Notes under the pieces: generated by a model
The model's input: the letters and a program-made list of their open reading frames with translations, nothing else
Databases searched by the model: none
Told to the model about the DNA's origin: nothing
Assembly: GCF_029537375.1 (NCBI RefSeq)
Contig: NZ_CP120679.1
Span: forward strand, 601,501-665,500
DNA: 64,000 bases
Reading direction: 5' to 3'
Origin: Bacillus sp. HSf4
Lineage (GTDB): Bacteria; Bacillota; Bacilli; Bacillales; Bacillaceae
Part shown: piece by piece, positions 51,413-57,778 of the stretch
How positions within the stretch are numbered: position 1 is the first letter of the stretch
Layout of the letters: each line of letters begins with the position of its first letter
Program-made: the position numbers and the translations under genes

Positions 51413-52384
51413 TTAAGAATGTGAACCAGAGTGATGCAGCGATAATACTTCCTTTGCGGTAGCCATATCCGTTACGAGAAAATCGATCCATCCCCCGCGC
51501 AGTGCCGCCCCGATCGCCGCCGCTTTTTTTTGGCCGCTTGCGACGGCCACTACATTTTGGGTGTTTTTTAATTCATGGACCGATAAACCGATCATTCTGG
51601 ATGCCTCTTCACACTTGATCACGTTTCCGTTTCGATCTAAAAATGATGTGCACACAACCGCTTCAGCGCCTTTGTCCCTTAAGCGATGAAGGTCCTCCTT
51701 GCTGAAATATCCCGAAGTGACAATCGTATCTTCTTCTGATACGGTTCCGATCCCCACCACAGAAACTGCGGCTTGACGGGCAAGTTCAATGACGTCAGCG
51801 ATTTCCCGTTCAGCCGTGATGATATCCCTCGCCTGTTTGGAGACGACAACGGCGGGTGCGTTGATCAAAAAGTATTTTGATTTTAATTTTTCACCGAATA
51901 ATCTTGTATTTGAGTTGGCATGCCATGTCGCCCCTTCGGCGCCCCAGCCGCCGACAAGGGGAACAAATCGCAGATTTTTCCGCGAAAAAAAAGGCAGTTC
52001 CTGGGCGAGCAGATTGACGCTCTTTCCAGCCATAATCCCAATAATGTCGTGATGTTTGATGATGGATTCCAGCAATACAGCACCGGCTCTAGCAAGGTGC
52101 AGGTCGATCATCTGCTGTTCGGCGTCCGGCATATTGATGACGACCGCGTTTTTTATACCGAAAGTTTCCTTCAGCCGTCGTTCGTATTGCTGTTCGTCGC
52201 CATAAGGATTTTTAATTGTAATTTGGACGATTCCTTCCGATTTGGCCGCGCTCAGCATCCTGCTGACCTGTGAACGGGAAACAGAAAGCTGCTCGGCGAT
52301 TTCCTGCTGGCTCAATCCATCAAGATAGTAAAATGTGCTGATTTTGACAAGTTGACGAATTTTTTCTTCATTGATGTCCGGCAT
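51413..52384 (-). CDS. SorC/DeoR(Bsu)-family transcriptional regulator
   Basis: The 323-residue regulator has an N-terminal helix-turn-helix (FYYLDGLSQQEIAEQLSVSR, SQVSRML) and a SorC sugar-binding-like effector domain (FVPLVGGWGAEG, VVGIGTVSEED, GALRGGWIDFLVTD). SorC proteins usually respond to phosphorylated sugars or nucleosides; B. subtilis DeoR is of this family. It is divergent from trpB and its operator-like palindromes overlap the trpB promoter. It is the likely local regulator of the tryptophan-halogenase cluster and of itself. Confidence 0.9.
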   Translation of the reverse strand: MPDINEEKIRQLVKISTFYYLDGLSQQEIAEQLSVSRSQVSRMLSAAKSEGIVQITIKNPYGDEQQYERRLKETFGIKNAVVINMPDAEQQMIDLHLARAGAVLLESIIKHHDIIGIMAGKSVNLLAQELPFFSRKNLRFVPLVGGWGAEGATWHANSNTRLFGEKLKSKYFLINAPAVVVSKQARDIITAEREIADVIELARQAAVSVVGIGTVSEEDTIVTSGYFSKEDLHRLRDKGAEAVVCTSFLDRNGNVIKCEEASRMIGLSVHELKNTQNVVAVASGQKKAAAIGAALRGGWIDFLVTDMATAKEVLSLHHSGSHS

Positions 52385-52403
52385 TTTGAACCTCTCTTTC
52401 CCT

Positions 52404-52450
52404 TGAACAAATGTTCACCCTTGAAATTATGTTCGATGAGGAGATATAAT
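52404..52450 (+). promoter_or_regulatory. Promoter and SorC-type operators of the trpBA-halogenase cluster
   Basis: TTGAAA (52421-52426) and TATAAT (52445-52450), 18 bases apart, form the promoter. The perfect palindrome TGAACAAATGTTCA (52404-52417) lies just upstream, and a related TTGAAATTATGTTC (52421-52434) overlaps the -35. Both resemble the TTGAAC-type sites of DeoR-like SorC regulators. Confidence 0.75.
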
Positions 52451-52456
52451 AAACGT

Positions 52457-54663: not shown

Positions 54664-54780
54664 CAAAAAGCGGGCTAATTGTGAAATGCGTTTAGGTGAT
54701 CTATCAAATAAGAGTTTAACATCCACTTCTTAGTTTTAGACTTTGCGACAAAGCTCTTAAAATCATGGGGAGTGAGAACA

Positions 54781-56133
54781 ATGTTAGATATAAAGAAATC
54801 CTTTCAAGAGAGAAATATCGATTATTTTACGGATGACTATTACAAGTATGTTTCCATATTGCGTGATTACAAGGGGCATGTGCGCAGAAAGGAATCTTAC
54901 TACGCCGACAATTTTAGGGAGAAAGGAACGGCTTTATTTGAATGCTTAGGGATTGAAATCGTTCATCAGCTGCACTGTCAATTGAAATGTGAATACTGTT
55001 ATATCGCTTTGGATACGAAAAGCGAGTCGATTAAACCGGTCCCGGTTGAAGACATTATGAGCATCATTGATCAAGCGGCAGAAATTGATGAAGCCACAGG
55101 GAAAACGCTTTTTGGCCAAATTGGATTCATCGGCGGAGAACCGACTTTGCACCGCCATTTGCCAAGTCTCTTGGAATATACCTTAAGCAAAGGATTGACA
55201 CCGATACTGATCACCAACGCAGTCAAGCTGGCAAAAATCGATTATGCAAGAAAGGTGTGTCTCCCCGGAACGGTTATTGTCACCCACCTGCCTTATCTTG
55301 ATGAAGAAGGGGATAAGGAACATGATAAAATCACCAGATTTCCGGGCTACACGAAAACATTGGAGACAGCGATCCAAAATATGTTGACGATCAGAAAAGA
55401 GCTGAATGCCGTCGGTCAGGATTTTGAATTTGTCGGCGACTTTGTGTTAAGCAAGCAAACACTTCCGTATGCGTTTGAAGTGCACAAATTTTGCAGAAAG
55501 AATGGGATTAACCCATTTTTCGAACGGATGAGGATTTCCGATGATCAAAGAAATCACCATCTTGCTCCCGGCCGTGACGAAATAAAAGAACTGCTGAATC
55601 AAATCTTTGAGTATGATAAGACCCATTATCCGCATCTGATCTTTAAATCGGACGATGTTCAGGAAGAGGACGTCTTGCTGAAAAGAATCGAATATTTGAT
55701 TACCCCTGCTTCCGCCAACGCCTGTTCCATGACACAGACGGGAATCCATGTAAAATATAACCAAAATGGCTTTGGTGAAGCGCTGTCTTGCGTCGGCCAG
55801 TCGATTCCGCATGGAAACATGCAAAAGAACAGTTTGCAGGAAATCGTCAATCAGAAAATCCAATCGCGCATCTTTAGTGAGCAAGAAACATATATAGCGG
55901 GGCCTTGTTCCGTTTGTGAATTATATCACTTAATCGGCTGTGAGGGAGGATGCCGCGGCAATGCCAACAGTACGTTTCATTGCGGGCGGGCGTCTGATCC
56001 GGAGTGTTTGTTCATTAAAGAAGAATACAGAATGAATAAAGCGGTCATGGCTCCTGAACATTGCGACGGTTGTCCGGTCAGCGAGTGGGCCCCTTGCAGC
56101 AGCTATGTTCAAAGCGAAAGTGTACTGAAATGA
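54781..56133 (+). CDS. Radical SAM/SPASM-type protein
   Basis: The 450-residue protein has the radical SAM cluster motif C66-xxx-C70-xx-C73 (CQLKCEYC), GGEPT at about 118-122 for SAM binding, and a Cys-rich C-terminus with C315, C337, C376, C379, C387, C391, C401, C409, C428, C431 and C439. CSVCELYHLIGCEGGCRGN is typical of SPASM domains holding auxiliary Fe-S clusters. SPASM enzymes usually modify peptides, but no precursor gene is visible; a free amino acid or carrier-bound substrate is possible. ATG at 54781 follows GGGGAGTG. It is between trpA (118 bases) and the halogenase (58 bases). Confidence 0.88.
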   Translation: MLDIKKSFQERNIDYFTDDYYKYVSILRDYKGHVRRKESYYADNFREKGTALFECLGIEIVHQLHCQLKCEYCYIALDTKSESIKPVPVEDIMSIIDQAAEIDEATGKTLFGQIGFIGGEPTLHRHLPSLLEYTLSKGLTPILITNAVKLAKIDYARKVCLPGTVIVTHLPYLDEEGDKEHDKITRFPGYTKTLETAIQNMLTIRKELNAVGQDFEFVGDFVLSKQTLPYAFEVHKFCRKNGINPFFERMRISDDQRNHHLAPGRDEIKELLNQIFEYDKTHYPHLIFKSDDVQEEDVLLKRIEYLITPASANACSMTQTGIHVKYNQNGFGEALSCVGQSIPHGNMQKNSLQEIVNQKIQSRIFSEQETYIAGPCSVCELYHLIGCEGGCRGNANSTFHCGRASDPECLFIKEEYRMNKAVMAPEHCDGCPVSEWAPCSSYVQSESVLK

Positions 56134-56191
56134 GGTTCAACAGAGATGTCGTGAATTCACTATGTGTTAAAAATGATTGGAGGCGTTAATA

Positions 56192-57778
56192 ATGGGAGAA
56201 GCGATTCGGGATGTCGTGATTCTAGGCGGGGGATCTGCAGGTTGGATGACCGCCTCTTATCTGTCAAAAGCGTTCGGGAGTCAAATGAATATTACACTGA
56301 TCGAGGCCGAAACGATTCCAAAGATCGGCGTCGGAGAGGCGACGATCCCCAATCTTCAGCGGGTGTTTTTCGACTTTTTGGGGATACCAGAAGAGGAATG
56401 GATGCGGGAATGCAATGCCTCTTTCAAGGCGGGGATCAAGTTTGTCAATTGGCGCAAACCGCCTGAAGAGGACAAAGATGATTATTTTTACCACCTCTTT
56501 GGACAAGTGCAAAACTGTGACAATGTCCCGCTTACTCATTACTGGCTCCGCCGCCGGTTTGAGGAAAACGACAAAGAGCCGATGGCGTATGCGTGCTACC
56601 ACCAGGCGCCGCTGCTTGACGAAAAATTGTCGCCCCGGATGATGGACGGCACTCAAGTGATGAGTCATGCCTGGCATTTTGATGCGCATCTGGTGGCGGA
56701 TTACCTTCGCAAGCTCGCGACCGGCTGGGGAGTCCGTCATATCCTGGATGAACTCGTTGACGTTGAGCTGGCGCCTGACGGCAGTATTTCCGCGCTGAAA
56801 ACGCGCAAGGGCGGCCGGTATGAGGCGGATTTGTTTGTGGATTGCTCCGGCTTTCGCGGTCTGCTGATCAATCAAGCGCTGGGTGAGCCGTTTATCGAAA
56901 TGAGCGACCAGCTTTTCTGCGACAGTGCGGTGGCCGCTTCAGTCCCTCACGATGATGAGCAGTATGGAATCGAGCCTTATACATCAGCGATTGCCATGAA
57001 GCATGGCTGGACATGGAAAATACCGATGCTCGGCCGCTTTGGATCGGGCTACGTTTACTCAAGCAAGTTCGTCTCTCAGGATGAGGCGACCGAAGAGTTT
57101 ATCAAGCTTTGGGATTTAGATCCGAACAAAGTGCAGCTCAATCAAATCCGCTTTCGAACCGGGCGGAACCGCCGGGCCTGGGTGAAAAACTGCGTTTCAA
57201 TCGGTTTGTCTTCATGCTTTCTGGAGCCGTTGGAATCTACCGGTCTGTACTTTATCTATTCGGGCATATATCAGCTCGTCAAGCATTTTCCGGATAAGTC
57301 CTTTAACCCTGCATTGATTGATCATTTCAATGAAGAGATTGACGGAATGTTTGACGATTGCCGGGATTTTATCCAAACGCATTATTTCACAACCACCCGT
57401 GACGATACCGAATTTTGGCGCGCCAACAAAAGCGATTTGAAGCTGTCAGATGAGCTGAAGCAAAAACTCAAGACCTATCAATCCGGGCTTGTTGTCTGTC
57501 CGCCGCTGACCACCAATGAATCCTCCTACTACAGCAATTTCGAGACTGAGTTTCGCAATTTCTGGACAAACAGCAACTATTACTGTATGTTCACCGGCAT
57601 GGGCTGGCTCCCGGATCAATCTTTGCCAAAGCTCAATTATCGTTCGGAAGCGATTCAGGAATCAGAGGAAATGTTCGCCGCCCTGAAACAAAGAACGGCA
57701 GAGCTTAAAACGAAACTTCCTTCAACTTACGAATATTTAAAAATGCTGCACGGAGCAGGCGAAAGGGTCGGTCAATAA
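56192..57778 (+). CDS. Flavin-dependent tryptophan halogenase
   Basis: The 528-residue protein has the FAD motif [12 protein letters not shown], the catalytic Lys at residue 79 (ASFKAG), the halogenase signature GWTWKIP with Trp 273 and 275, and LEPLEST with Glu 345. These match the PrnA/RebH class, in which reduced flavin, O2 and halide make HOCl that is guided to the indole ring. A flavin reductase is needed and is not in this cluster. ATG at 56192 follows TTGGAGG. The regioselectivity (5, 6 or 7) cannot be read from sequence. It closes the unit. Confidence 0.94.

Follow-up and report, generated by a model that had tools for sequence, protein, structure and literature searches.

A portable SorC-trpBA-radical SAM operon with an optional tryptophan halogenase, proposed to supply and divert tryptophan in Bacillus and Paenibacillaceae

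A five-gene cassette and its conserved core

The window analyzed here, a 64,000-nucleotide stretch of the single 4.42-Mb contig of Bacillus sp. HSf4, a member of the same genus as Bacillus sonorensis, contains a cassette in which a SorC-type regulator gene is divergent from an operon encoding TrpB, TrpA, a radical S-adenosylmethionine (SAM)/SPASM enzyme and a PrnA-like halogenase. We propose that, on balance, it is a portable biosynthetic operon whose role is to supply tryptophan (Trp) and divert it. The five-gene order is more than chance, since the same order recurs in other genomes of two genera, and the core is SorC-trpBA-radical SAM, with halogenation optional because the halogenase follows the radical SAM gene in only two of the four close loci.

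Families were assigned with Pfam and NCBIfam profiles. The SorC/DeoR-type regulator gene (51413..52384, minus strand) matches Sugar-bind (PF04198) with 226 bits. On the plus strand lie trpB, a second copy of the tryptophan synthase beta gene (52667..53857; TIGR00263, 640 bits, cut-off 392), and, joined to it by a TTGA overlap, trpA for the alpha subunit, with a TTG start (53854..54663; TIGR00262, 280 bits, cut-off 102). These are followed by the radical SAM/SPASM gene (54781..56133; Radical_SAM, PF04055, 35 bits, cut-off 29.5), whose frame is open from a GTG at 54772 and probably starts at the ATG at 54781, and by the gene for the flavin-dependent tryptophan halogenase, predicted to act at C7 (56192..57778; Trp_halogenase, PF04820, 562 bits, cut-off 21), whose open reading frame (ORF) spans 56177-57778 with a likely ATG start at 56192. 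With these ATG starts the trpA-radical SAM and radical SAM-halogenase gaps are 117 and 58 bases. A preliminary description, made from the letters of the window, had named the same five genes, order and families, which the ORF list and profile scores bear out, and its gap lengths of 118 and 58 bases agree within one base. It had also placed a dedicated trpBA in one operon with a halogenase of the PrnA class and a radical SAM/SPASM enzyme; this linkage holds, in one order across genera.

The four close loci are those of the window's own genome, B. sonorensis (G027), Paenibacillus curdlanolyticus (G436) and a Paenibacillaceae genome (G614). Every locus was located through a radical SAM search, which reaches trpBA cassettes only where that gene is present. 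All four, from at least two genera, have SorC, trpB, trpA and the radical SAM gene in the same order and orientation, with SorC always present and divergent. Amino-acid identity to the window's proteins is 91-94% for the four B. sonorensis proteins, and for SorC, TrpB, TrpA and the radical SAM enzyme, respectively, 60, 81, 59 and 73% in P. curdlanolyticus and 60, 82, 60 and 66% in G614. The halogenase stands directly after the radical SAM gene in the window and in P. curdlanolyticus (79% identity), where the trpA-radical SAM gap is 11 bp and the radical SAM stop and the halogenase ATG overlap by one base (TAATG). It does not follow that gene in B. sonorensis, whose whole genome has no match to it, or in G614, which is known from a 6.2-kb contig alone. 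The ratio of nonsynonymous to synonymous divergence (dN/dS) between the window and B. sonorensis is 0.12 for SorC, 0.07 for trpB, 0.10 for trpA and 0.15 for the radical SAM gene, which says that the four shared genes are under purifying selection and kept functional; against P. curdlanolyticus and G614 the ratio has no value, as synonymous sites are saturated.

The cassette is rare, with figures that are approximate because the genome samples are overlapping draws. The radical SAM enzyme had matches in three of 44 genomes of the genus (E<=0.001: the own genome, B. sonorensis at 91% and G034), one of 398 of the class (own; E<=1e-40), one of 398 of the phylum (own; E<=1e-30) and three of 394 of the family of P. 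curdlanolyticus (G436, G614 and G646; E<=1e-20). The G034 match (23% identity, E 2.1e-4) was not counted as a relative. A GTDB pattern scan (39 stretches) gave two relatives, B. sonorensis NBRC 101234 and P. curdlanolyticus YK9; its output holds neither G614 nor G646, and hence it is weak for more distant members.

The enzymes of the cassette

The own genome carries a second, canonical trpB, 61% identical to the cassette copy, and the cassette TrpB is an extra copy in all four genomes. In an 11-row tree with two long branches, which leaves the deeper forks unresolved, the TrpBs of all four cassettes group together with a support of 98/100, and canonical TrpBs lie outside this group. A Paenibacillaceae origin is suggested because the cassette TrpB is nearer to canonical-looking TrpBs of that family (72-73%) than to those of Bacillus (61%). 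Both TrpB and TrpA score above curated cut-offs, and their translations contain what we take to be the active-site motifs. The P. curdlanolyticus genome has three trpB genes, each on a contig of its own; their products are 81% (the cassette copy), 72% and 56% identical to the window's cassette TrpB.

The halogenase is closest to PrnA, a Trp 7-halogenase (794 bits to 2apg, the nearest solved relative; the mutant chain 2jkc has another residue in place of the Glu of 2apg). PrnA/RebH-type halogenases are marked by the catalytic Lys79 and Glu346 and by GxGxxG and WxWxIP motifs. The window's enzyme has GGGSAGW and GWTWKIP, and the alignment retains counterparts of what we take to be PrnA K79, H101, F103, E346, E450, F454 and W455, so that both catalytic residues are kept. 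Five positions, presumably I52, I82, T360, S469 and N470 in RebH numbering and, as we understand it, a set that moves chlorination from C6 to C7, read I, I, T, S, N as in the Thal variants 6ib5 and 7aqu of the PDB, whereas 6h43 and 8rs4 have V, V, S, G, S; PrnA itself matches four of the five. We predict that chlorination is most likely at C7. PrnA-type enzymes act on free Trp, and for this reason a route to Trp first and then to 7-chlorotryptophan is the simpler one; nothing found supports the earlier suggestion that Trp is made here from haloindole. PrnA-type halogenases were found in one of 44 genomes of the genus (own; E<=1e-3), one of 278 of the order (own; E<=1e-60) and one of 388 Paenibacillaceae (P. 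curdlanolyticus; E<=1e-60), a sample that does not show whether G614 was drawn. In these samples of Bacilli the halogenase is thus confined to two genomes, both with the cassette.

Radical SAM/SPASM enzymes are marked by CxxxCxxC and seven further SPASM cysteines. In the window's enzyme C66, C70 and C73, and seven SPASM-type cysteines (315, 337, 376, 379, 387, 391 and 409) with spacings somewhat longer than in the classical motif, are invariant in all five relatives aligned. Among the best 25 of 31 NCBIfam matches none reaches its cut-off (best 42.7 bits versus 180); Pfam gives no second domain, and about 60 residues precede the radical SAM domain. Sequence comparison with the PDB finds the tetraether synthase 7tol, to which a profile search adds two weaker radical SAM enzymes, PHROGs yields three weak radical SAM matches, and the plasmid search gives two records, both from Rhizobium (23-30% identity). 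A precursor peptide in the trpA-radical SAM gap was considered and not kept, as that gap is only 11 bp in P. curdlanolyticus. Fold comparison was dropped as a guide to the substrate, the model being too poor to tell it.

Two layers of control

The operator, the leader and the mobility described in this and the following section had no place in the preliminary description and are added here. The closest PDB relatives of the regulator are DeoR (8r7y), SorC (2w48) and LsrR. Deoxyribose-phosphate was rejected as its effector: DeoR has an LKGG stretch that contains the Schiff-base lysine, the corresponding residues here are LVGG, and for this reason the effector is likely to differ from that of DeoR. 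The candidate SorC operator TTGAACAAATGTTC (52403..52416, plus strand) is an exact 14-mer that occurs once in each of the four loci (64.0, 21.3, 21.3 and 6.2 kb), each time within the gap that separates SorC from trpB, and not in loci L017 or L009. A second operator-like copy, TTGAAATTATGTTC (52421..52434, plus strand), is a looser repeat of the first. Beside the first copy TTGAANNNNTGTTC is also found in B. sonorensis and P. curdlanolyticus and, with one mismatch, in G614; the spacing from the first copy to the second is four bases in the window and in P. curdlanolyticus, and 12 in B. sonorensis. By eye, a promoter-like TTGAAA-18-TATAAT, with TTGAAA as a possible -35 and TATAAT at 52445-52450, overlaps the window's second copy.

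Between this promoter-like sequence and trpB lies a series resembling a TRAP-binding site (52472..52521, plus strand), seven UAG/GAG triplets with one GAA among them and 2-base spacing, followed by an intrinsic terminator (52596..52628, plus strand; CCTCTAC...GTAGAGG plus a T run). Scored by a scheme of our own design, devised after seeing the sequence, the (G/U)AG repeats reach 7.1, the best place in the window, and those of B. sonorensis and P. curdlanolyticus 7.0 and 6.8; none of 500 dinucleotide shuffles reaches the score in any of the three (maxima 4.4, 6.1 and 4.7, respectively). TRAP-type repeats thus precede trpB in three of the four loci, and mtrB, which encodes TRAP, is present in all five genomes searched, the own genome included. 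The own canonical trp leader, with nine triplets in a row, scores 10.4. In TRAP-attenuated leaders such repeats overlap an anti-terminator whose formation excludes a terminator. Folding was computed for the cassette leaders alone, and in the window the probability of the terminator rises from 0.24 in the free leader to 0.999 when the TRAP site is held single-stranded. Trp-controlled attenuation is thereby well supported as a prediction for the own genome and weakly for B. sonorensis.

Mobility

An acyltransferase gene (49432-51375) and an MFS transporter gene (57993-59219) flank the cassette. The transporter is present in 24 of 44 genomes of the genus, with 86-93% identity in the 23 others, of which 22 have no radical SAM match; the remaining one, B. 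sonorensis, has its cassette elsewhere. Among the 23 relatives, whose MFS neighborhoods were fetched, five have the acyltransferase within 1.5 kb upstream of the MFS gene, at a spacing of about 190 bases in two and about 670-720 in three, versus 6.6 kb here. Hence in five related Bacillus genomes, B. sonorensis among them, the site that the cassette occupies here is empty. Neither flanking gene was retained as a member of the cassette, the transporter being so widespread and the acyltransferase being the flanking gene at the empty site, although the transporter could export a product.

The B. sonorensis cassette is on another contig than its empty acyltransferase-MFS site and matches the window from 51304 to 56160 at 90.9%. 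The match starts with the last 72 bases of the window's acyltransferase gene and ends between the radical SAM and halogenase genes. The empty site in five relatives, together with a copy elsewhere that carries the tail of the flanking gene, tells us that the cassette moves, and the simplest reading is that a piece of a locus like that of the window was transferred to B. sonorensis, with the halogenase left behind. Synonymous divergence (dS) between the two is 0.27 for SorC, 0.40 for trpB, 0.36 for trpA and 0.26 for the radical SAM gene, and 0.57-1.40 for 10 of 11 other ORFs (the exception, a 109-aa ORF, is at 0.14), these 11 being the rows judged to be sense genes after 18 of 29 were dropped as antisense or out-of-frame. 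The lower values of the cassette genes agree with transfer, within the limits that saturation and codon bias set on such figures. About 1.6 kb to the left of the B. sonorensis cassette (L010:4947-6598) has no ORF of 90 aa or more and by eye resembles what is left of decayed small genes, as would be compatible with insertion into degraded DNA.

Proposed function and its alternatives

Starting from the gene order and its conservation in the loci found, the mobility, the intact motifs, the operator-like sequence and the TRAP-type repeats, all observed directly, we put forward a hypothetical scheme. SorC would bind TTGAACAAATGTTC beside the trpB promoter and answer a small phosphorylated molecule, for which indole-glycerol phosphate and sugar phosphates are candidates, and in the window's genome Trp-bound TRAP would attenuate the nascent leader, such that transcription would run on into the operon at low levels of free Trp. 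TrpA and TrpB would draw indole-glycerol phosphate from the housekeeping pathway to form L-Trp, leaving the housekeeping trpBA free for protein synthesis. The halogenase, supplied with FADH2 by a host flavin reductase, would chlorinate Trp at C7. The SPASM enzyme would then perform the committing step, on Trp in B. sonorensis, which has no halogenase, and on 7-chlorotryptophan in the window's genome and P. curdlanolyticus, and the outcome would be a Trp-derived small molecule of unpredicted structure. A common pathway is supported by the conserved linkage and by the overlap of the radical SAM stop and halogenase start in P. curdlanolyticus, and we infer the use of Trp by the radical SAM enzyme because in each of the four close loci its gene is found together with trpBA. 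In its more specific form, the proposal describes a horizontally mobile natural-product route of a novel type: a SPASM enzyme would modify free Trp or 7-chlorotryptophan supplied on site by a dedicated TrpBA, the halogenase would be a swappable tailoring gene, and TRAP and SorC would both control the operon. This version is tentative, and we give it a little under an even chance.

Several observations weigh against this scheme. The trpBA-radical SAM linkage is partly selected, the loci having been located through the latter gene, and TrpA diverges more than TrpB (59 and 81% identity). The AlphaFold model of the radical SAM enzyme is poor (pLDDT 54), and its Foldseek matches are generic radical SAM enzymes, many of which act on peptides or sugars. 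No flavin reductase or exporter is common to the loci. The leader of G614 is without TRAP repeats (score 1.0, reached by 491 of 500 shuffles), the computed switch is weak in B. sonorensis (terminator probability 0.76 to 0.999), and the model gives no switch in P. curdlanolyticus (0.994 free, 0.995 bound). On whether the genes are distributed independently in related genomes, a point raised by the preliminary description, the result is divided: the four core genes occur together in all four loci, whereas the halogenase separates from them and a radical SAM/SPASM relative in G646 (locus L017, 41% identity) is in another setting with no trpBA beside it. Furthermore, an aminotransferase of L017 matches a model for ribosomally synthesized peptides (daptides), at 234 bits far below its cut-off of 450.

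This last match bears on a different explanation, in which the SPASM enzyme matures a small ribosomal peptide and the halogenase chlorinates a Trp within it, for which lantibiotic halogenation is a precedent. The Foldseek neighbors of the enzyme include SkfB, SuiB, PqqE and EpeE, and the daptide-type match, weak as it is, led us to raise our estimate slightly. Nevertheless, this is the least probable of the explanations considered: in P. curdlanolyticus there is no room for a precursor gene between trpA, the radical SAM gene and the halogenase (a precursor elsewhere was not searched for), the roughly 60 residues ahead of the radical SAM domain are short for the usual recognition domain, the halogenase belongs to the PrnA class that acts on free Trp, and trpBA would go unexplained. 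Only slightly better placed, and still improbable, is a chance joining of a stand-alone 7-chlorotryptophan-forming halogenase to an unrelated SorC-trpBA-radical SAM operon. The halogenase does not follow the radical SAM gene in two of the four cassettes, and an Acinetobacter lwoffii relative on a 6.9-kb plasmid is alone with a LysE-type exporter; yet it stands directly after that gene in two genera, with stop and start overlapping in one, and within the genus, Paenibacillaceae and order samples it occurs only in cassette genomes.

The cassette trpBA might instead be a resistant or back-up copy for self-protection, where the radical SAM enzyme and the halogenase make an antimetabolite and the product or 7-chlorotryptophan blocks the housekeeping tryptophan synthase or the Trp supply. 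Such a function would suit a TRAP-type leader, which would turn trpBA on under apparent Trp shortage, and a cassette TrpB clade separate from canonical TrpB. We consider it unlikely, though less so than the other two, as TrpBA is kept in cassettes that have no halogenase and the loci share no exporter.

Relation to known systems

Pyrrolnitrin formation (prnABCD) begins with PrnA, the nearest solved relative of the window's halogenase; the window, in contrast, is without PrnB, PrnC and PrnD and has trpBA and a radical SAM/SPASM enzyme. The neighbors of the halogenase are trpBA and the radical SAM gene on one side and the MFS transporter on the other, and prnB, prnC and prnD are not beside it; an Azotobacter plasmid prn locus was examined for comparison. 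RebH and Thal, of the rebeccamycin and thienodolin pathways, belong to the same enzyme class, and at the five regiochemistry positions the window's enzyme agrees with the Thal variants; their clusters differ in that no amino-acid oxidase is found among the neighbors scanned here.

In Pseudomonas, TrpI, a LysR-family protein, is encoded divergently from trpBA. The cassette regulator is likewise divergent from trpBA, with indole-glycerol phosphate or a similar phosphate as a possible signal, but it is of the SorC family; moreover, trpBA is an extra copy here, and biosynthetic genes downstream and a TRAP-type leader are added. The leader resembles that of the TRAP-attenuated trp operon of B. subtilis in its (G/U)AG repeats ahead of a terminator, with mtrB in the same genome, and differs in being tied to a halogenase operon; it has seven true triplets, fewer than the uninterrupted nine of the own canonical leader. 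NosL-type tryptophan lyases share the radical chemistry on Trp proposed here, but the fold match to the window's enzyme is weak (E ~1e-3, rank 28 and lower), PDB searches gave no sequence match, and to our knowledge NosL has no SPASM domain.

Tryptophan halogenases are prized biocatalysts. Both PrnA-type halogenases in the sampled Bacilli adjoin a radical SAM gene, and the window's radical SAM enzyme is below every named-family cut-off among the best 25 of its 31 matches. If it does use free Trp or chlorotryptophan, a radical reaction new for amino acids would be added, and in bacteria that grow readily. Because nature provides the cassette both with the halogenase and without it, experiments can address directly in which order the steps occur and what each of them contributes.

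Neighboring genes and further observations

Genes for a nonribosomal peptide synthetase, trpEDCF, an oxidase or a decarboxylase were not found by Pfam among 15 neighboring genes between 29.7 and 63.8 kb, a scan that left out ORFs at 32.0-36.7 kb and everything before 29.7 kb; for these 15 the earlier statement that no other pathway genes are present holds. A PF04199 'putative cyclase', of a family that presumably includes kynurenine formamidases, lies beside an amino-acid permease at 41822-44220 (minus strand), about 5 kb before the flanking acyltransferase gene.

In L017 (2590-11937, Paenibacillaceae) the radical SAM relative, with no NCBIfam match at 1e-20, is accompanied by an AMP ligase, the class-III aminotransferase, a short-chain dehydrogenase/reductase (SDR), a crotonyl-CoA carboxylase/reductase (456 bits, cut-off 379) and an MFS transporter, company that we count in favor of the scheme proposed above. 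The gene between aminotransferase and SDR resembles a transposase by eye, and the cluster matches no recognized named pathway.

Among 92 plasmid records with a halogenase match, of which three were opened, the Acinetobacter lwoffii plasmid is mobilizable and encodes a Trp halogenase (66% identical) with the gene for a LysE-type translocator directly after it (L065:2433-4608), perhaps a minimal unit that makes and exports halotryptophan. Cation:proton antiporter genes recur near Trp halogenases: after a 19-bp gap in P. curdlanolyticus (L011:11389-14248), several genes on in the Azotobacter prn locus (L066:8001-14962), in Streptomyces sp. NBC_00376 (L067:7971-11534), and in the Streptomyces plasmids NBC_00825 and NBC_01591, where the two matches are about 0.7 kb apart. 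The recurrence hints that halogenase and antiporter are functionally linked, perhaps in export or halide balance.

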